This document shows positions 32,271 through 40,339 of a stretch of 59,428 nt of DNA, piece after piece. Made by a program: the position numbers and the translations under genes. Location of the stretch: the IMG/VR virus record IMGVR_UViG_3300025127_000036, positions 1 through 59,428 of that record. One strand, written 5' to 3'. The notes below the pieces were generated by a model that searched no databases, had not been told where the DNA came from, and saw only the letters and a list, made by a program, of their open reading frames with translations. This DNA is from a virus. Each line of letters begins with the position of its first letter. The stretch's first letter is position 1.

Positions 32271-32792
32271 ATGCCTCAAATTAAAAAAATTGAAAGATCT
32301 GAAAAAGATTTAACACCTAAGCAACGTATGTTTTGTGATATTCTCGTTGCAAATTGGGGTGAAATTACATATGCCGAGGCCTGTAAAAGGGCCAAATATG
32401 AGTGTGCTAATGAAAAAGATTATTCAGCTATAGCCTCAAGATTATTAAATAGAAGGTTAAATCCCCATATAGCAAAATATTTAGACAAAAAATATGAAGA
32501 AGAAGTTAATAAATTCTCAAAAGATAAACTTAAAAGATTTAAAAGATTAGATCATTTATCTAAAGAAGCTGAGAAGAGTAAACAATTTAATGTATCTGTA
32601 CAGGCTGAATATAGATCAGGCCAATTAGCGGGCTTGTATGTTGATAAGAGAGAAGTTAAAGTAAGTGGTTTAGAAGGAATGAGCCGTGTTGAACTTGAAA
32701 AAAAACTCAGTGAATTGTCAAAAAAAATTGATGGTTACAACGCCAAAACCATCGAAATCGAAGCCGAAGAGACAAAAGAGCTTCAAAAATAA
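32271..32792 (+). CDS. terS: Terminase small subunit
   Basis: A 173-aa protein. The N-terminal KDLTPKQRMFCDILVANWGE followed by ITYAEACKRAKYE is the helix-turn-helix DNA-recognition region of Terminase_2-type small subunits. Helical oligomerisation follows (YLDKKYEEEVNKFSKDKLKR), and the C-terminus is a coiled coil. It would bind the packaging site and load the large subunit. It lies 6.1 kb from terL, separated by the minus-strand island, which is unusual. Tandem 11-bp repeats lie just upstream. Confidence 0.75.
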   Translation: MPQIKKIERSEKDLTPKQRMFCDILVANWGEITYAEACKRAKYECANEKDYSAIASRLLNRRLNPHIAKYLDKKYEEEVNKFSKDKLKRFKRLDHLSKEAEKSKQFNVSVQAEYRSGQLAGLYVDKREVKVSGLEGMSRVELEKKLSELSKKIDGYNAKTIEIEAEETKELQK

Positions 32793-32866: not shown

Positions 32867-33163
32867 ATGTCAAAACGAAAAATAACGTTAAATAAAAGAG
32901 CTAAAACTGAAATAGAAAGATATCCCATGGTCTCCGTGGAGTGGTACGATATCGTATCAAATAGTTCATGGTCAAGTTTTCAAGAACTAAAAAAATCAAA
33001 ACTCGCAACATGCATTACAAAAGGCCATCTTTACAGTCAAGCAAAAGGAGTTACCAGAATTTTTGGAGATTATTCTTATTCTGAAAATGGCTTAGATATT
33101 GAAAGCATTGGAAACACAACTATAATACCTAATTCAGTAATTAAAGAAATAAAAAAAATTTAA
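32867..33163 (+). CDS. 98-aa conserved protein (SVEWYDIVSNSSW)
   Basis: MSKRKITLNKRAKTEIERYP precedes SVEWYDIVSNSSWSSFQELK, a motif I know from small phage proteins that begin 'xVxWxDxxSxxxW' and end in an IGNTTIIPNSVIKEI-type strand, as here. It is probably a compact beta-rich domain. Function unknown. The gene ends just before an intergenic GC-rich segment between convergent genes. Confidence 0.6.
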   Translation: MSKRKITLNKRAKTEIERYPMVSVEWYDIVSNSSWSSFQELKKSKLATCITKGHLYSQAKGVTRIFGDYSYSENGLDIESIGNTTIIPNSVIKEIKKI

Positions 33164-33287: not shown

Positions 33288-33842
33288 TTAATTTAGTTTT
33301 TTTACTTTTAAACCTTGTTTTACAATATTATCCTCCCCAAAATTTTTGGATAACATTTTTCCTATTTGAGATATCATTTTTACCTCAGTATGTTTTGGAG
33401 TTTCCGACACCTTAAACTCTTTATGTTTCGTTAAAAGCATTGGATTAGTCCAATAATAAACACCCTCACCACCATATGTATCTTTTGGTTTTTTTACAGA
33501 TTTACATTCTGATATGTACCATTCATTATCTTTAAAAATATAAATGTACTCAATCATGAAATCACCCCGCATAGAATTAAAATACATCCATTCATCTCTA
33601 AATTTTTGTGGGCCATTATCTTCTTCGTTTCGATCTCTTCCATAAAAAAAACATTCATCCAAAGTATCTGCTAAATATGATGCACTACCTAAATTTACTA
33701 ACTCATTTACTTTATCATAGGTATTATAGAATTTATGCAAACATACCCCAACTCCCTCAGGATACCCATCACTATGAACATATATTACTTTTAATTTATT
33801 TGTTGCGGGATCAATTATTGCAACATTACTTCTTGTAGACAT
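33288..33842 (-). CDS. Conserved MSTRSNVAII phage protein
   Basis: A 184-aa protein. The ATG at 33842 is 6 nt after AGGAGG; the in-frame extension to 33857 ignores this site. MSTRSNVAIID, then VIYVHSDGYPEGVGVCLHKF and KVNELVNLGSASYLADTL form the hallmark of a widespread phage family of unknown function (STRS-x-(I/V) start, IYxHxDGYPE box). The second half has a beta-rich Tyr/Trp segment (YIYIFKDNEWYIS). It is the last gene of the minus-strand island. Confidence 0.75.
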   Translation of the reverse strand: MSTRSNVAIIDPATNKLKVIYVHSDGYPEGVGVCLHKFYNTYDKVNELVNLGSASYLADTLDECFFYGRDRNEEDNGPQKFRDEWMYFNSMRGDFMIEYIYIFKDNEWYISECKSVKKPKDTYGGEGVYYWTNPMLLTKHKEFKVSETPKHTEVKMISQIGKMLSKNFGEDNIVKQGLKVKKLN

Positions 33843-33859
33843 CTTTTCCTCCTGCATTG

Positions 33860-34045
33860 TTATTTGACTTCATTTTTTAAGTGTAACGGTGTTTCACAAA
33901 TATAAAAAAACACGTCTCCCTTATCTTCGATCACTTTAAATGCTGATCTTTTCTCTTCCGCAATATCTTTTGTTTTATATTGCCCCGCAATACTGAAAAC
34001 GCTTTCATTATTTGCGAAAGTCTTTTCTCTTATTATTAAAAACAT
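33860..34045 (-). CDS. 61-aa island protein
   Basis: MFLIIREKTFANNESVFSIA, then KTKDIAEEKRSAFKVIEDKG: a small alpha/beta domain (strand, strand, helix, strand). AGGAGG is close to the ATG. It belongs to the chain of small minus-strand genes spaced 2-60 nt apart. Function unknown; the fold resembles small inhibitor proteins only in the broadest sense. Confidence 0.55.
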   Translation of the reverse strand: MFLIIREKTFANNESVFSIAGQYKTKDIAEEKRSAFKVIEDKGDVFFYICETPLHLKNEVK

Positions 34046-34047
34046 AT

Positions 34048-34236
34048 TTACCTCCTTTCTTTTAAATTAAAATTTATTGTTACTGTTTCATCATTCGAGT
34101 TGTCATCCTTAGTGTCATAAATAATTGGACACTTTTTTAACCACTCCTCAAATAATTTTTTTGTTTTATCTTTATATCCTTTTGCTTTATTTTTTGATTG
34201 AACATGATCTATTCCATGTCTTGTCTGATCATTCAT
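34048..34236 (-). CDS. 62-aa island protein
   Basis: MNDQTRHGIDHVQSKNKAKG is hydrophilic; a helix (TKKLFEEWLKKCPI) and an acidic, Asp/Asn-rich segment with a closing VTINFNLKERR strand follow. It overlaps the upstream gene by 8 nt. No known family. Confidence 0.5.
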   Translation of the reverse strand: MNDQTRHGIDHVQSKNKAKGYKDKTKKLFEEWLKKCPIIYDTKDDNSNDETVTINFNLKERR

Positions 34237-34516
34237 AATGGCCCTCTATAATTTCAAAAGTTATTGGTTTTACCTTTGACCAACCATCAACTTGATCAAA
34301 ATCATGAATAAAATCTAAAACATCACTTTCATTTTTGTAATCAACTTCATATTTTTTTTCATTAACTGTTAAAATAATATCTCCACCATCAACTTCAGTA
34401 TAAGCCTCATCAACTTTAAAAGTTCTTTTTAGAGCTTGAGATATTGCACAAGTATTACATTGTCCAGGTTCACCGTCTTTTATATCTTCTTCAGTTACAT
34501 TGATTGTATATTTCAT
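34229..34516 (-). CDS. 95-aa island protein with C-N-T-C motif
   Basis: Start chosen at ATG 34516, about 10 nt after GGAGG. MKYTINVTEEDIKDGEPGQC, then NTCAISQALKRTF: the C-x2-C followed by a helix recalls small proteins that begin with a beta strand and the GExxxCxxCPxALA pattern found in phages. The C-terminus has DFDQVDGWSKVKPITFEI. Possible metal site; function unknown. Confidence 0.55.
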   Translation of the reverse strand: MKYTINVTEEDIKDGEPGQCNTCAISQALKRTFKVDEAYTEVDGGDIILTVNEKKYEVDYKNESDVLDFIHDFDQVDGWSKVKPITFEIIEGHYE

Positions 34517-34548
34517 TTTCTCTTTTCCTCCCATAAGATATCATAAGA

Positions 34549-34776
34549 TTATTTATTTGCAAGAACTTTTATACCATCATATTCAAGATTATCTAAAATA
34601 TTCAGGGCCTCTGCTATGCCTCTAGCTAATTCTTTTGTCTCGCAATAGCATAAAACCTTTATGGCCCCGTTTTGATCATCAAATTTTACTGCATTATCTT
34701 CAGCAAAATTTAAACCCTCAAAACAATCTTTTTTTATCATGTCTCGGGTTACATAATTATATTTTTTACTTTTCAT
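34549..34776 (-). CDS. 75-aa island protein
   Basis: MKSKKYNYVTRDMIKKDCFE, then VLCYCETKELARGIAEALNI: an alpha/beta arrangement ending in a hydrophobic strand (DGIKVLANK). The gene overlaps its upstream neighbour by 4 nt (ATGA-like), which supports translation. Unknown family. Confidence 0.55.
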   Translation of the reverse strand: MKSKKYNYVTRDMIKKDCFEGLNFAEDNAVKFDDQNGAIKVLCYCETKELARGIAEALNILDNLEYDGIKVLANK

Positions 34777-35072
34777 ATTTCTAAACCCTCCCTAATTATT
34801 TTTGATATTTTTTTAAATTCATCTGCGGGGTCGTGTTCAACTTCATTCCATTGTTTTGCATTGGTATCGCAAATATTTAGAATTGTTTTTAATTTTTCCT
34901 TGTATGGATTTTCTAGAATGAAAGCATGATCCCTATCTACATCTTTTGCCAAATCTTCGTCATAACTTATAATTAAACCCGTACTCTCACACTCTTGTAT
35001 TATGCAATCTTGTAATTCATCTGCATTTATTCCATCATCATAAGCATAATAATTTTTTTTTAAGTTACTCAT
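34773..35072 (-). CDS. 99-aa acidic island protein
   Basis: MSNLKKNYYAYDDGINADEL is followed by LQDCIIQECESTGLIISYDE and a C-terminal helix (NEVEHDPADEFKKISKII). It is strongly acidic, a property shared with phage DNA-mimic inhibitors, but that idea is only compositional. GGGAAAAAA precedes the ATG. Unknown family. Confidence 0.55.
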   Translation of the reverse strand: MSNLKKNYYAYDDGINADELQDCIIQECESTGLIISYDEDLAKDVDRDHAFILENPYKEKLKTILNICDTNAKQWNEVEHDPADEFKKISKIIREGLEI

Positions 35073-35082
35073 TTTTTTCCCT

Positions 35083-35232
35083 TCAGTTTATCTCTTCTGT
35101 TGTCGCTGTCACATATTCCTGTAAATTCATTTTACAATCTACAAGAGCTTCTACTTCAGCTTCATCTTCATTTTCAGCCTCAATTATATTTTCATATCCT
35201 AACTCTTCTATATTAACTTTAAACTTCTTCAT
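35083..35232 (-). CDS. 49-aa acidic island protein
   Basis: MKKFKVNIEELGYENIIEAE, then acidic residues rich in Glu/Ala (NEDEAEVEALVDC) and an amphipathic end. It starts 14 nt inside the upstream gene and is preceded by GGAG. The beta-strand start plus 'ENIIEAENEDEA' helix is a known arrangement in small phage proteins (ENEDEA box). Function unknown. Confidence 0.55.
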   Translation of the reverse strand: MKKFKVNIEELGYENIIEAENEDEAEVEALVDCKMNLQEYVTATTEEIN

Positions 35233-35407
35233 TCTTGTTTTCTCCTCTGTTTTTGTTAAATGATTTTGTTAAGTGAAATTGTTTAAATTGTTCTCTAGCC
35301 TTTTCTTTTGTCATTAAAAAACCCTTGTAGCCTATTACAGCTACAAGGATTATAAACAAAACAACAAACCCAATTATTCCAAAAAATATTTCAATTAATT
35401 CTGACAT
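35219..35407 (-). CDS. 62-aa membrane protein of the island
   Basis: One strongly hydrophobic segment near the N-terminus (IFFGIIGFVVLFIILVAVIG), then a basic cytoplasmic tail (KEKAREQFKQFHLTKSFNKN). It overlaps the upstream gene by 13 nt and the downstream one by 14 nt. A single-span membrane protein in an early-type gene island could be a superinfection-exclusion factor; this is inference only. Confidence 0.6.
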   Translation of the reverse strand: MSELIEIFFGIIGFVVLFIILVAVIGYKGFLMTKEKAREQFKQFHLTKSFNKNRGENKNEEV

Positions 35408-35796
35408 TCAAAAACTCCAATTGTTAATTGAAACTGGCCTTCTGAAATAATTCCAAAACCTAATGATGGTCTGTTATTTAATAACTTAGCCATTAAACTA
35501 ATTAATTGTTCAACAGTAAGAGCGGGCTCATTTGGTAGTCCCAATCCGCTACTATCGACAAATAAACCACCTTTATTTAATATTTTATGTGAGTAAGGTA
35601 ATTCCCAACTCATTACATATTTTTTTATATTAAGCCTTTTCCAACCTTTGGGAATATAGTTTCCTAAATTTACTATCTCCCCTAAGTTTTTCACACTCAA
35701 GTTTTGGCCCTCAAAAGTTGTAGGTTTCATTCCATGTCTTTTTGCTTTGTTGCCCGCCTGCTTATTGAGAGCAACAATTGTTTCTATGTCCATCAT
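35395..35796 (-). CDS. 133-aa island protein
   Basis: Starts with ATGATG 8 nt after GAGGAGG. MMDIETIVALNKQAGNKAKR, then PKGWKRLNIKKYVMSWELPY and a conserved-looking C-terminal half (SLGFGIISEGQFQLTIGVFE). It has mixed alpha/beta character. Unknown family; no catalytic motif. Confidence 0.55.
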   Translation of the reverse strand: MMDIETIVALNKQAGNKAKRHGMKPTTFEGQNLSVKNLGEIVNLGNYIPKGWKRLNIKKYVMSWELPYSHKILNKGGLFVDSSGLGLPNEPALTVEQLISLMAKLLNNRPSLGFGIISEGQFQLTIGVFECQN

Positions 35797-35799
35797 TGT

Positions 35800-36033
35800 C
35801 TATTCCTCCTCATTTATTTGATTTACTTTGTCCCAATCTATATGACCCCTATTATAAGTAACGGGCCTTCCATAACCATCAACTATTGAGACAGTTCCAT
35901 TTTTTTTATCTTGTAAGATTATTTTTAATTCTAAAAATTCATTAACCCATCTTCCAATTGATCCTTCTAACTGAAGCCATTGGCCTGTGTTAAAGTATTT
36001 TAAAGCTTGTTTACATTCTTGATCTGCTATCAT
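35800..36033 (-). CDS. 77-aa island protein
   Basis: MIADQECKQALKYFNTGQWL, then GSIGRWVNEFLELKIILQDK and a beta end (TVSIVDGYGRPVTYNRGHID). It has AGGAG upstream. It is probably a small beta-rich domain. Unknown family. Confidence 0.5.
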   Translation of the reverse strand: MIADQECKQALKYFNTGQWLQLEGSIGRWVNEFLELKIILQDKKNGTVSIVDGYGRPVTYNRGHIDWDKVNQINEEE

Positions 36034-36051
36034 CTTTTCTCCTATTTTTTA

Positions 36052-36342
36052 TTATCTTGGATCTTCCCATTCATAGCCATCAAAAATTTTAACCAGTGGT
36101 GATCCACTCATATCAAAATCTTTTTTGTGTCCATATTTGAAAAATATTTTATGAGCTAATTTTGCTAAATGCTTTCTAACTCTTAACATTTTTCCTAATG
36201 TGTACTCATCACCGATTTGCTCTAACTCTGTTCTTACATGTTTGTTTTCAGTGTCCAGAGCTTCTGCAATAGCATTCATTAAAATCTCTCTAGCCATCTG
36301 CCCCTCTGTGTAACCTTCAAACTTTTTTTGTTCGTATCTCAT
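36052..36342 (-). CDS. 96-aa helical island protein
   Basis: I chose ATG 36342, 5 nt after GGAGG; an extension to 36354 would bury that site. MRYEQKKFEGYTEGQMAREI, then LMNAIAEALDTENKHVRTEL and KMLRVRKHLAKLAHKIFFKY. Highly helical and slightly basic. First gene after the repeat-containing gap at 36355-36445. Unknown family. Confidence 0.5.
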   Translation of the reverse strand: MRYEQKKFEGYTEGQMAREILMNAIAEALDTENKHVRTELEQIGDEYTLGKMLRVRKHLAKLAHKIFFKYGHKKDFDMSGSPLVKIFDGYEWEDPR

Positions 36343-36377
36343 TTTTTCCTCCATTATGTTTTTTCATTTATTCTCCT

Positions 36378-36425
36378 ATCATATCCCATGTAAATAAGAT
36401 ATACAATGGTCAAAAGTGTCGCACC
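36378..36425 (-). promoter_or_regulatory. Regulatory gap with GTCAAAAGTGTCGCACC repeat
   Basis: The 17-nt string at 36409-36425 is repeated exactly at 38188-38204 in the same orientation. On the minus strand it reads GGTGCGACACTTTTGAC and ends in a -35-like TTGAC. Nearby TATC-A-TAT...ATA-A-GATA (36377-36401) forms a small hairpin with CCCAT in its loop. At the other copy a -10 lies 17 nt away; here none is at the right distance. Confidence 0.5.
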
Positions 36426-36445
36426 TTATTTAGAATTATTCTAAA

Positions 36446-36643
36446 CTAGTCTTCCGAAAAATCACGCCATCCCGCTCTTCTGCCTTTATTGTCTTTTACA
36501 AGTTTATCTATTGTGGCCCAAATTTTATTCCAGTCTCCTTTGCTCGCGACCCATTCCGCGAGCGTTGAATTACATGAGCCGTGAGTAACTTTAATTATGC
36601 CTTTAGATTTTTTTATATTTATTTCTGCTGAGCCGTATTCCAT
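36446..36643 (-). CDS. 65-aa island protein
   Basis: Started at ATG 36643, 4 nt after AAGGGGG. MEYGSAEINIKKSKGIIKVT, then SCNSTLAEWVASKGDWNKIW and KLVKDNKGRRAGWRDFSED. A compact alpha/beta fold with several Trp. It overlaps the upstream gene by 25 nt. Its 3' end is followed by the regulatory gap at 36378. Unknown family. Confidence 0.55.
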   Translation of the reverse strand: MEYGSAEINIKKSKGIIKVTHGSCNSTLAEWVASKGDWNKIWATIDKLVKDNKGRRAGWRDFSED

Positions 36644-36822
36644 TTTTCCCCCTTTTCTAATGTTTGATATTCTAGCCATCCGTTGCCCTCACTTACACCC
36701 TCTAAAAATGCATTTAATTCATCATCCGTTTTAAAAGTGTATGTTTTGTCTGTGTAACCTTTAATTGGTTTTTCTGTTTTTCTTACTGCCTCAGTGCCCC
36801 AAATAATCCTAATTTTTTTCAT
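36619..36822 (-). CDS. 67-aa island protein
   Basis: MKKIRIIWGTEAVRKTEKPI, then KTYTFKTDDELNAFLEGVSE and WLEYQTLEKGEKWN. A strand-loop-strand-helix-strand order, as in small ubiquitin-like or ferredoxin-like domains. It overlaps the upstream gene by 4 nt. I recall similar short proteins (TFxTxxELNAFLxGVxExxGW) in phages, with unknown function. Confidence 0.6.
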   Translation of the reverse strand: MKKIRIIWGTEAVRKTEKPIKGYTDKTYTFKTDDELNAFLEGVSEGNGWLEYQTLEKGEKWNTAQQK

Positions 36823-37046
36823 CCTTGACCCCCATATTTTAATGTTTCAAGTTTATCAATCACCTTATCAAATTCTTCACAACTACAAGTTGTATCCTCC
36901 TCAGTCTCTGGTTCGCCTTTTGCCTGCCATTCGCTATGCTTGCATACATGGAAATCAGCGTCTCTGAGATCTCTTATATCTTGCATTATATCTTCGATAA
37001 CGTCATCATGAAGTTGATCTGCTTTATCTAAAATGTCTAAATGCAT
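36819..37046 (-). CDS. 75-aa acidic protein with Cys/His cluster
   Basis: MHLDILDKADQLHDDVIEDI is a long acidic helix; CKHSEW (C and H) and TTCSCEEFD provide three Cys and one His that could bind zinc. Its stop overlaps the next gene by 4 nt. A small acidic zinc-binding protein; function unknown. Confidence 0.55.
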   Translation of the reverse strand: MHLDILDKADQLHDDVIEDIMQDIRDLRDADFHVCKHSEWQAKGEPETEEDTTCSCEEFDKVIDKLETLKYGGQG

Positions 37047-37523
37047 TTAATTACCCTCCAATCCAAATTGTTCAGCGTTGTTTATTCTTTTTGTCTTTTC
37101 TTCGAGACTTAGGCTGTCCCAATCCTCAGGAAACGTACAACCCGCAATTTCAAAAAATCTTTTTTTCTGCTCTATTGATTTTTCATCCCCTGTTGATAGT
37201 AACCCAAAAAGTTTTGAAACCATGGCGGTCGTTTTTATTACATCGTTTTTTGGTTTATCTGGATTTATGCCCTGAGCTTTTTTTAATTCATCTTCAAATA
37301 TAGAGTTTTTAATTCTATACTCTTTTCTGGCATAACCATTAAAGTCTTCGATCCAATTAAGATGTTTTGCTGTTGTTACCGACCAAACATTTTGACTAAT
37401 ATAAAATCTGTGTTGATCATCAACAAACGCTACTGGTGTTGAATAAGAATAAAATACTCTTATTCCGTCTTCATCTTTATAATAAAGATTTTTAGTTGAT
37501 CTTAGATATATTTTTTTACTCAT
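37047..37523 (-). CDS. 158-aa island protein with YSYSTPVAF and TTAKHLNW
   Basis: VFYSYSTPVAFVDDQHRFY and NVWSVTTAKHLNWIEDF form a phage protein pattern I have seen annotated as a DUF (perhaps DUF8033; uncertain). The C-terminal half is helical (KNDVIKTTAMVSKLFGLLST). It is preceded by AAGGAG and a strong 42-bp hairpin. It is one of the two largest proteins of the island and probably a conserved component. Confidence 0.65.
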   Translation of the reverse strand: MSKKIYLRSTKNLYYKDEDGIRVFYSYSTPVAFVDDQHRFYISQNVWSVTTAKHLNWIEDFNGYARKEYRIKNSIFEDELKKAQGINPDKPKNDVIKTTAMVSKLFGLLSTGDEKSIEQKKRFFEIAGCTFPEDWDSLSLEEKTKRINNAEQFGLEGN

Positions 37524-37542
37524 TTTTTTCTCCTTTTGTTTA

Positions 37543-37584
37543 ACCCCTTAATCTTATCATATCCCATCAATAAGATCAAGGGGT
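37543..37584 (-). promoter_or_regulatory. 14-bp hairpin with ATATCCCAT loop
   Basis: ACCCCTT-A-ATCTTAT (37543-37557) pairs with ATAAGAT-C-AAGGGGT (37570-37584), leaving one mismatch and a 12-nt loop CATATCCCATCA. It sits between two island genes. The loop motif ATATCCCAT recurs at 29477, 36382 and, inverted, near 38168. It may be a terminator for the 37592 gene or a control element in the leader of the 37523 gene. Confidence 0.6.
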
Positions 37585-37591
37585 AATTTAT

Positions 37592-37795
37592 TTATTTTTT
37601 ATTTTCTATTTCACGCTCTTTTAGTTTATCTGCGATAAAAGACCTGACACTATTTGAAATTGCGGTCTGGTGTTTACCTCGATCACGTTTTGACATTTTT
37701 AATTGAAAATGTTTCTGTTCATCTCTCAGGCCCGTTGCTTGATCAAATTTATAGATCAAGTATCTAGCCTCTTGTCTCTGTTTAAATGTACTCAT
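37592..37795 (-). CDS. 67-aa basic island protein
   Basis: Start chosen at ATG 37795 after AAAAGGA. MSTFKQRQEARYLIYKFDQA, then KMSKRDRGKHQTAISNSVRS and a basic helical end. The Lys/Arg content and helix pattern fit a small DNA- or RNA-binding protein. It is followed by the strong hairpin at 37543. Unknown family. Confidence 0.5.
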   Translation of the reverse strand: MSTFKQRQEARYLIYKFDQATGLRDEQKHFQLKMSKRDRGKHQTAISNSVRSFIADKLKEREIENKK

Positions 37796-37875
37796 TTTTT
37801 TGTCCTTTTGTTTTGGCATCTCATCAGTATGCGACCGCCACTCGCATAGACGGGGCAATGCCCCGTTTCGATAGA

Positions 37876-38121
37876 TTAATTAAAATGTAATTCACCGCTT
37901 TCATTAACTCTAAGATTATTTTCCATTTCAGTTAAAAATTCGTCAAAATAACCTTGACCCGCGCCACTCTCTGCTTGTCTTTTATATCTATAATTAAACC
38001 ATGATAACAATTCATCTTTTGTTGATTTGAAATAATCTTCTGCAAAACCGTTGTAAATATAAATTGATTTAGCTGATTTTATTTTTTTGTTTATCGCTGT
38101 TCTTCTCTGTGCATTTGTCAT
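37876..38121 (-). CDS. 81-aa island protein (first of the unit)
   Basis: Start chosen at ATG 38121 after AAAGGA; upstream in-frame ATGs at 38148 and 38184 have no ribosome site and run through the promoter. MTNAQRRTAINKKIKSAKSI, then YIYNGFAEDYFKSTKDELLS and YFDEFLTEMENNLR. It is the promoter-proximal gene of the minus-strand island and may be expressed first. Unknown family. Confidence 0.5.
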   Translation of the reverse strand: MTNAQRRTAINKKIKSAKSIYIYNGFAEDYFKSTKDELLSWFNYRYKRQAESGAGQGYFDEFLTEMENNLRVNESGELHFN

Positions 38122-38163
38122 TTTTTTATCCTTTGTTGTTTTGTTCATATAATATCTATATAA

Positions 38164-38204
38164 GATATAATGGGATATAATCATATAGTCAAAAGTGTCG
38201 CACC
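38164..38204 (-). promoter_or_regulatory. Promoter of the minus-strand island
   Basis: On the minus strand TTGACT (38192-38187), 17 nt, TATATC (38169-38164). The -35 lies at the end of the 17-nt GGTGCGACACTTTTGAC element shared with 36409-36425. The start site would fall near 38157, 36 nt before the ATG at 38121. The repeated upstream part suggests a common activator or repressor site. Confidence 0.55.
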
Positions 38205-38266: not shown

Positions 38267-38686
38267 ATGTCACAACCTGAGGCCCAACTTTGGAAACAAG
38301 TAAAAGAAGCTTTACAACATCAAAATTATTTTTTAACCAGAATTGAAACGTTGACGGTTTCAGGTGTTCCAGATGTATTTGGTTGTTACCGTGGACAATC
38401 TTTTTGGTTAGAATTAAAATCAAATCAGGTCAATTATCCAACGTTGAATAAACATCAAATTGTCTGGATTAACAAAGCAATTAAACATGGATTAAATGTA
38501 TTGATCTTGCATAGAGCCCAAAAGCAAAAGACGCTCAAAATCTACAGACCATTAACTTTTTTTACTGATCCGCGATCCCTTATCCCTGTTTTTATTTGCA
38601 AAATTCCTGTGCGATGGCCGTTATTCGTTGACCATTTTACGCGGGCCGTGTTGACTGATTTAAAAAACTTAAACGCGGATCAGTGA
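38267..38686 (+). CDS. VRR-NUC-type nuclease
   Basis: A 139-aa protein starting at ATG 38267 (an extension to TTG 38228 crosses the palindrome and has no support). SGVPDVFGCYRGQSFWLELK, then LNKHQIVWINKAIKHGLNVL is the VRR-NUC pattern: catalytic D in PDV, E-x-K in ELK, and a Q in the helix. Phage VRR nucleases may act as junction resolvases or restrict host DNA. It lies 168 bp upstream of terL, so debranching before packaging is plausible, as with T7 gp3. Confidence 0.75.
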   Translation: MSQPEAQLWKQVKEALQHQNYFLTRIETLTVSGVPDVFGCYRGQSFWLELKSNQVNYPTLNKHQIVWINKAIKHGLNVLILHRAQKQKTLKIYRPLTFFTDPRSLIPVFICKIPVRWPLFVDHFTRAVLTDLKNLNADQ

Positions 38687-38854: not shown

Positions 38855-40339
38855 ATGCAAACCAACCTTGATAGATTAACCGATGAAGAACTAAGGGACT
38901 TAGTATTAAAGAAGCAGCTGGAATATATAAAATTATGCCAAGATGATTTCTTAGCTTTTGCGCAGGCAGTTTGGCCAGACTTCATTTATCGTAAAACAAA
39001 GGACCCAAAAAGATACGGCCACCATCAAATAATTTCGGAAAAATTTCAGGACATAGCGCAAAACAAAGAAAAAAGATTAATTATAAATATGCCACCAAGG
39101 CATACTAAATCTGAATTTGCTTCATACTTATTTCCTGCTTGGATGATTGGCAGAAACCCTAAAATGAAATTGATGCAAGTTTCACACAATGCTGAACTTG
39201 CAGTAAGGTTCGGTAGCAAAGTAAGAAATTTAATGGATACCGAAGAATACAAAACTATATTTGGAGATGTTAAACTAAGAGAAGATAGTAAAGCAAAAGG
39301 ACGTTGGGAGACCAATCATGGTGGGGAATATTTTGCAGCGGGTGTTGGCGGTTCTATCACAGGACGAGGGGCGGACTTACTTATTATCGATGATCCACAT
39401 ACGGAACAAGATTCAATGTCAGACAAAGCAATGGATCGTGCTTACGAGTGGTATAGCTCAGGGCCAAGACAACGTTTGCAACCAGGTGGAAGAATAATAG
39501 TGGTCATGACCCGTTGGGCAACAGACGATCTCACCGGTCGTTTAGTGAAGGCTCAAACAGAACCAAAAGCGGACAGATGGAACGTAATAGAATTTCCAGC
39601 CATCATGCCTACCGGAAAACCAGTTTGGCCTGAGTATTGGAAACTAGAAGATTTAGAAGCAGTCAAAGCATCTGTGTCAACAAAGAACTGGAATGCACAA
39701 TATATGCAGGACCCAACCTCAGAGGAAGGGGCTATAATAAAAAGAGAATGGTGGAATGATTACGATAAAGATTACCTCCCTAGATTGCTGCATGTCATAC
39801 AAAGTTATGATACTGCATTTAGCGCCAAAGAAACGGCAGACTACTCTGCAATAACAACTTGGGGAATATTTCAACCAGTTGAAGGTTACGAAAACGCAAT
39901 TATTTTACTTGATGCAATAAAAGGCAGATATGACTTTCCTGATTTAAAAAATGTTGCTTTAGAACAATATAAATATTGGGAACCTGAAACAGTGATCATT
40001 GAGGCTAAAGCAAGTGGCCAACCTTTAATACACGAATTGAGAAGAGCAGGACTACCTGTAATAGATTATGTGCCCGCAAAGGGAAGAGATAAGTTTACCA
40101 GGATTAATAGCTGTTCTCCAGTGTTTGAATCAGGAATGGTGTGGGCCCCTTTAGATGAAAAATTTGCTCAAGATGTAATTGAGGAATGTGCAGCTTTTCC
40201 TAATGGTCAATATGATGACTATGTAGACAGTATGACCCAAGCTGTGCTAAGATATAGACAAGGTGGTTTTGTAAATACATACTCAGACGATTGGGACGAT
40301 CCACCAATTAAATTAGAAAAGGAATATAAATATTATTAG
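38855..40339 (+). CDS. terL: Terminase large subunit
   Basis: A 494-aa protein. ATPase: Walker A-like PPRHTKSE (residues 80-87), Walker B LLIIDDPH (D179, D180) and coupling motif MTRWATDD. Nuclease (RNase H-like): SYDTAFS...DYSAITTWG, VIIEAKASGQPLI and DDYVDSMTQAVLRY supply the acidic residues. It translocates and cuts DNA during packaging. SITGRGADLLIIDDP is typical of podovirus and P22/T7-type headful or concatemer terminases. The start has no clear ribosome site and may be coupled to the preceding short frame. Confidence 0.95.
   Translation: MQTNLDRLTDEELRDLVLKKQLEYIKLCQDDFLAFAQAVWPDFIYRKTKDPKRYGHHQIISEKFQDIAQNKEKRLIINMPPRHTKSEFASYLFPAWMIGRNPKMKLMQVSHNAELAVRFGSKVRNLMDTEEYKTIFGDVKLREDSKAKGRWETNHGGEYFAAGVGGSITGRGADLLIIDDPHTEQDSMSDKAMDRAYEWYSSGPRQRLQPGGRIIVVMTRWATDDLTGRLVKAQTEPKADRWNVIEFPAIMPTGKPVWPEYWKLEDLEAVKASVSTKNWNAQYMQDPTSEEGAIIKREWWNDYDKDYLPRLLHVIQSYDTAFSAKETADYSAITTWGIFQPVEGYENAIILLDAIKGRYDFPDLKNVALEQYKYWEPETVIIEAKASGQPLIHELRRAGLPVIDYVPAKGRDKFTRINSCSPVFESGMVWAPLDEKFAQDVIEECAAFPNGQYDDYVDSMTQAVLRYRQGGFVNTYSDDWDDPPIKLEKEYKYY

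Follow-up and report, generated by a model that had tools for sequence, protein, structure and literature searches.

Intercistronic type II hammerhead ribozymes and gene-exact swapping in a hypervariable operon divergent from terL in pelagiphage-type genomes

The window analyzed here, taken at its full length, is a 59,428-base virus record from IMG/VR (IMGVR_UViG_3300025127_000036). Its TerL protein is 71% identical to that of Pelagibacter phage HTVC023P, 63% to that of HTVC027P, and 62% to that of 023Pt_psg01; by sequence, the window belongs with the relatives of HTVC023P-type pelagiphages, and these relatives point to SAR11 as the probable host. Between terS (32271 to 32792, plus strand) and terL (38855 to 40339, plus strand) lies an island of minus-strand genes (33288 to 38121), divergent from terL and from a nuclease-like gene located ahead of terL (38267 to 38686, plus strand). 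A first-pass annotation of this DNA had listed 17 minus-strand open reading frames (ORFs) of 49 to 189 amino acids (aa), and we found them as described (i01 to i17), preceded by ribosome-binding sites and either separated by short gaps or overlapping slightly. The 17-nucleotide (nt) element that it had reported as repeated inside the island, GGTGCGACACTTTTGAC, occurs in exact form exactly twice, at the start of unit 1 (38188 to 38204, minus strand) and at the start of unit 2 (36409 to 36425, minus strand), the two copies dividing the island into two units. The gap between the first gene, i01 (37876 to 38121; 81 aa), which is the promoter-proximal slot gene, and the second gene, i02 (37592 to 37795; 67 aa, basic), is occupied by a type II hammerhead ribozyme that the annotation had not mentioned.

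An Rfam search of the window returned this single RNA (Hammerhead_II, RF02276) at 37811 to 37873 on the minus strand, with a score of 42.6 bits against a gathering cutoff of 37 and with model positions 1 to 66 covered; the predicted cut falls between 37849 and 37848. Read by hand, it consists of UAUC-GAAA, stem III (CGGGGC/GCCCCG), GUC, stem I (UAUGCGA/UCGCAUA, loop GUGGCGG), CUGAUGA, and GAUG, the last of which pairs with UAUC to form an open stem II. It thus has the core of the class, namely GAAA, NUH (where H is not G), and CUGAUGA, as well as the loop-closed stems I and III and the open stem II of type II hammerheads (RF02276; PMC3088659). The GGC of loop I is complementary to a GCC in the tail, which is the position of the pseudoknot reported for type II hammerheads (PMC3088659).

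We then looked for the ribozyme in other marine phage contigs, which we designate by L numbers. In nine other records, a ribozyme of the same family follows the first gene downstream of the exact element, on the strand of the element; one is likewise placed behind a variant element in L012, whereas none of 48 TerL relatives lacking the element carried it. A degenerate pattern scan of viral contigs recovered ribozymes on 90 contigs, and a slightly wider expression gathered 110 ribozymes. Among the 64 contigs that hold terL (48 with the terL type of the window, 16 with another that resembles the one of HTVC106P closely), all 79 ribozymes are on the strand opposite to terL and upstream of it. ORF ends were found nearby for 104 of the 110 ribozymes, with the stop codon located 0 to 9 nt before the ribozyme in 102 cases and at a distance of exactly one base in 64, while a start codon usually follows 14 to 24 nt after the ribozyme. 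The upstream proteins make up 36 families. Compared with the RF02276 hammerheads described so far, the phage copies are distinguished by being intercistronic, at stop codons, and present in up to three copies per operon. Most of the collected ribozymes belong to a subtype more common than that of the window, with a TTAAT-like loop, a GATC/GATC stem II, and a CAGAAAC tail; this subtype scores only ∼24 to 28 bits with RF02276 and is therefore missed by the Rfam cutoff, which yielded no match in 14 contigs carrying it. A blastn search of annotated phages with two of the ribozymes gave no match, a weak test with so short a query, and a tblastn search of the same phages with two cassette proteins gave none either. 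Full-text searches of open-licence literature turned up no paper in which hammerheads are linked to pelagiphages or to the surroundings of the terminase genes; earlier notice elsewhere is possible.

Two further observations concern similar structures. Several hammerhead-II-like motifs lie within 2 kb in L122 (2186 to 4104, plus strand), which has a terminase-like ORF of neither terL type. GC-rich hairpins such as CCCGGGGGCGCAAGCCCCC, resembling stem III alone, occur in intergenic gaps of L004, L006, L013, L105, and L114, and are possibly decayed ribozymes or stabilizing hairpins.

The structure of the ribozyme is supported by covariation. In 15 diverse members, 98.5% of the alignment cells are paired and 11 pairs changed on both sides; in 62 distinct members, aligned by fitting to the structure, 97.4% of the cells are paired and 14 of 18 pairs changed on both sides. 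The 62-member alignment contains 195 double-change cells, compared to 50.9 in shuffles, and none of 500 shuffles reached this value or matched the observed covariation on any of five measures; controls in which the partner strand was slid had only 38 to 50% of the cells paired. The invariance of the core is partly built in, since the collecting pattern demanded most core letters; it required neither the stems nor the positions.

The element at the head of both units is also shared. With up to three mismatches allowed, the 20-mer GGTGCGACACTTTTGACYAT has 2 matches in the window versus 0.00 expected and none in shuffles, both element copies agreeing with it at all 20 positions. Scanning for an exact 16-mer gave 34 stretches: the matches in L087, L088, L096, L107, and L108 have no shared flanks and look like chance, and the remaining ones are intergenic, in AT-rich surroundings, and for the most part precede small genes. 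In contigs with a recognizable terL, the element, including variants such as GGTGCGACAATCTTGAC, is upstream of and divergent from terL in 24 of 24 cases. We rejected the idea of a host regulon, because the seven matches in cellular genomes are scattered and none is titled Pelagibacter, and that of a genome-wide regulon, because each record holds only one or two copies. The element is a phage-specific sequence, present once or twice in a record.

The promoter proposed in the first-pass annotation, TTGACT-N17-TATATC, exists as a sequence at 38164 to 38192 on the minus strand, overlapping element copy 1, but the consensus gives it little support. The density of generic sigma-70 matches does not exceed that of shuffled sequences (37 versus 30 ± 5.6), and a hexamer, TATATC, follows at 17 nt for copy 1 only, copy 2 having no TATAAT-like hexamer at 16 to 18 nt. 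TTGAC is conserved beside the element in relatives, so that the case for a promoter comes from conservation and not from the consensus. The middle promoters of T4 that depend on MotA have a conserved box beside the −35 region in a phage that uses the host RNA polymerase. The element would resemble them as a conserved box near a putative −35 region and differs in being present at only one or two sites per record, with no candidate activator identified.

Other repeats and possible RNA structures were noted. The gap between i02 and i03 (37535 to 37590, minus strand) contains a 14-nt inverted repeat, CCCCTTGATCTTAT/ATAAGATTAAGGGG, around ATGGGATATGATAAG; the latter recurs at 36375 to 36389 (minus strand) after element copy 2 and, inverted, at 38170 to 38184 near copy 1, giving 4 matches in the window versus 0.7 expected. 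In L085 and L109, a leader of ∼600 nt separates the element from a gp33 homologue; it contains repeated CTGATCCCTGGTC/GACCTGGGATCAG arms and has the look of several structured RNA modules in a row. At the 3′ end of the island, a large predicted fold was no better than shuffles.

Comparison of the island content in relatives, which the first-pass annotation had called for, revealed that the gene content is hypervariable. L097, L104, and L106 share DNA that is 94 to 98% identical as far as the gene 1 start codon and ∼97% identical from the stop codon of gene 1 on, including the ribozyme flanks, and they carry three unrelated genes between these near-identical flanks. In L003, whose TerL is 99% identical to that of the window, i04 (36819 to 37046; 75 aa) is lost and i07 (36052 to 36342; 96 aa), the slot gene of unit 2, is replaced, the exchange extending from its start codon to the ribosome-binding site that follows. 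The 93% identity of i07 to a copy in the distant contigs L084 and L101, with a ratio of nonsynonymous to synonymous polymorphism (pN/pS) of 0.08, indicates transfer.

We then analyzed the island proteins. All 17 ORFs have homologues elsewhere (∼40 to 100% identity by tblastn, in related contigs), and pN/pS is below ∼0.65 for almost all informative pairs, often 0.2 to 0.4 (0.12 to 0.50 for homologues of i02), which argues for real genes mostly under purifying selection. The least supported is i01, with one near-identical copy (L003) and distant ones in L105 and L114. All genes of the island are on the minus strand. Unit 1 continues with i03 (37047 to 37523; 158 aa), i04, which is acidic and contains the Cys/His cluster noted in the first-pass annotation, i05 (36619 to 36822; 67 aa), and i06 (36446 to 36640; 64 aa), whose homologue in L144 is placed after a ribozyme. 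In unit 2, i07 is followed by i08 (35800 to 36033; 77 aa), i09 (35395 to 35796; 133 aa), i10 (35219 to 35407; 62 aa), which has one membrane helix predicted from its sequence, and i11 (35083 to 35232; 49 aa, acidic, phrog_1235), whose homologue in L084 is the first gene after the element. Next come i12 (34773 to 35072; 99 aa, acidic), i13 (34549 to 34776; 75 aa), i14 (34229 to 34516; 95 aa, acidic, phrog_19191), i15 (34048 to 34236; 62 aa, basic), i16 (33860 to 34045; 61 aa), and the last gene, i17 (33288 to 33842; 184 aa). Beyond the island, the product of the gene after terS (32867 to 33163, plus strand) has a very weak HigB-like Pfam match (E value of 0.043) and matches phrog_25889 (E value of 7e-23); this gene adjoins terS in most related contigs.

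None of the 17 proteins could be given a confident named function, in agreement with the first-pass annotation. Searches of Pfam and PHROGs with all 17 proteins and of NCBIfam with 10 of them returned unknown families only. These searches, together with sequence searches of the PDB with i03 and i17, which gave no match, and a Foldseek comparison of i03 only, which gave no PDB fold match, yielded no sequence or fold match to anti-CRISPR, anti-restriction, or DNA-mimic families. The N-terminal part of i03 has a DUF8033-like fold resembling DUF8033-like viral models. The AlphaFold model of i17 is too poor to use (predicted local distance difference test score of 44); i17 belongs to phrog_1987 (STRSN protein), with relatives in large Vibrio, Erwinia, and other phages, and a protein with the same MSTRSN start directly precedes a ribozyme in L188. 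The promoter-proximal (slot-1) gene of L086 and L190, and by sequence that of L019 and L021, encodes a zinc-protease-like motif, HEIGHAVF, and the L190 protein was recognized by neither Pfam nor PHROGs. None of these matches assigns an anti-defense role.

Clues to the timing of expression come from a cultured relative. HTVC027P has no RNA polymerase gene of its own, and all its early genes are of unknown function (PMC12753301). Its genes gp33 and gp34, which are minus-strand genes between its terS and terL, formed an extra cluster in RNA sequencing, highly expressed at 6 to 9 h and apart from the late genes (PMC12753301). Since homologues of gp33 (∼65%) are found downstream of the element of the window in L085, L089, L093, L102, and L109, the comparison supports, by analogy only, early-to-middle expression of the operon at this position. 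The leader of gp34/gp33, an operon divergent from and upstream of terL in this cultured pelagiphage, strongly matches Flavobacterium-1 RNA (RF02976; 90 bits versus a cutoff of 58.9; L116, 9175 to 9295, minus strand).

We propose that the island is a hypervariable accessory operon transcribed by the host RNA polymerase, with an mRNA that is cut between cistrons by the hammerhead, and we consider this explanation probable. Transcription would run away from terL, from the region marked by GGTGCGACA-N3-TTGAC, presumably by the host RNA polymerase, and the transcript would fold into a type II hammerhead just past the stop codon of the first gene and be cut after GUC. The 5′ product would be a short RNA encoding gene 1, with the stem III hairpin plus a cyclic phosphate closing its 3′ end, and the 3′ product would be the downstream polycistronic RNA with a 5′-OH and the stem I hairpin. 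These hairpins and unusual ends should alter the decay of each piece, and cleavage would uncouple the promoter-proximal gene from the rest of the operon in stability and level. Gene 1 occupies a slot in which whole genes, start codon through stop codon, are exchanged while the flanks stay conserved.

There are precedents for cleavage of this kind. A 2011 report described hammerheads in the genomes of phages and bacteria and left their function open; a triple hammerhead around ardA of Agrobacterium tumefaciens cleaves in vivo, and in haloviruses HF1/HF2 the 5′ end of an early polycistronic transcript maps to the cut site of a hammerhead (PMC3088659). As proposed here, these hammerheads are inside phage-type polycistronic transcripts. 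They are single cases, whereas the present ones occupy one position, next to swappable genes, in dozens of marine phage contigs.

Several observations weigh against this proposal. Folded as a single strand, the window ribozyme surpasses shuffled sequences by a moderate margin only (z = −2.34), and no −10 hexamer is conserved at a fixed spacing. Unit 2 of the window has the element and no ribozyme. The ribozyme is also absent from the element-bearing relatives L006, L013, L084, and L112, and is therefore dispensable. HTVC106P, HTVC010P, and HTVC024P gave no significant ribozyme match. Finally, neither element nor ribozyme was found in the complete HTVC023P, HTVC027P, and 023Pt_psg01; these phages share the terS-terL neighborhood, with minus-strand genes between terS and terL in the latter two, and differ from the window in gene content as well.

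A serious competitor, which we rate just behind an even match, is that the island is dedicated to early host takeover or anti-defense, the ribozyme being incidental mRNA processing. The small, variable proteins of unknown function, the early-to-middle expression of the HTVC027P counterpart, and the zinc-protease-like slot gene of L086 and L190 are in line with it, and a host-interaction role of the proteins would fit. This role had been suggested in the first-pass annotation. Early or middle timing is plausible, whereas no specific anti-defense or DNA-mimic assignment is supported: no family or fold match to any anti-defense protein was obtained in the searches described above, and acidity is not general, with isoelectric points of 4.1 to 4.4 for 4 of the 17 proteins, 5.1 to 5.3 for 2, 9.1 to 10.1 for 5, and near neutral for the rest. 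Moreover, such an island is compatible with the cleaved accessory operon and does not exclude it.

The ribozyme-tailed genes could also be cassettes, gene and hammerhead forming the exchange unit, in which case the shared ribozyme would serve mainly as recombination homology and cleavage would be secondary. Synteny does break at ribozyme junctions (27 pairs the same downstream only, 44 the same upstream only, and 32 both), with a break fraction of 0.84 versus 0.67 at other junctions of the same islands (0 of 2,000 permutations), and one architecture with related cassette proteins is found with both terL types. However, mosaicism is almost as high at the other junctions, genes are also swapped in unit 2 and L006/L013, where there is no ribozyme, and the covariation reveals selection on RNA pairing, which mere DNA homology would not need. 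Because the whole region is mosaic, a special role of the ribozyme in recombination is not established, and we regard the cassette explanation as unlikely. In integrons, different single genes stand beside a shared structured 3′ element. The likeness to the present slot genes is limited, as the element here is a ribozyme and not attC, swapping also occurs without it, and no integrase was seen, no specific search having been made for attC or integrase.

That the hammerheads are inactive relics, or mere 3′-end hairpins protecting the mRNA, is very improbable: stem III-like hairpins do stand alone between cistrons in L004, L006, L013, and L105, but the core letters (their invariance partly built in) persist along with all three stems, and stems I and III covary strongly. 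Chance matches, suggested by the single match in the window, are already contradicted by the score above a curated cutoff, the recurrence, the orientation of 79 of 79 ribozymes, the stop-codon spacing, and the covariation, and have a negligible probability.

The hammerhead class is already known; its systematic use abutting stop codons in a hypervariable operon divergent from terL, sometimes in several copies, and the subtype missed by Rfam appear to be new. We only tentatively extend our proposal to a broader one, in which single accessory genes, each with a stop-codon type II hammerhead of an Rfam-overlooked subtype, would be swapped as units at a single fixed position upstream of terL, in two or more pelagiphage-type groups, cleavage giving separately controlled mRNAs. 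As the ribozyme is so near the stop codon, cleavage might even be gated by the terminating ribosome, which is a guess.

The first-pass annotation singled out the island as a good candidate for undescribed biology, and its unknown proteins, hypervariable content, and conserved upstream element bear this out; the most unusual level is that of the RNA, with intercistronic hammerheads and gene-exact swapping. If cleavage is confirmed, these phages would allow the role of self-cleaving ribozymes in phage mRNA to be studied in a natural setting, and the element and hammerhead upstream of terL would mark accessory genes that escape homology searches.

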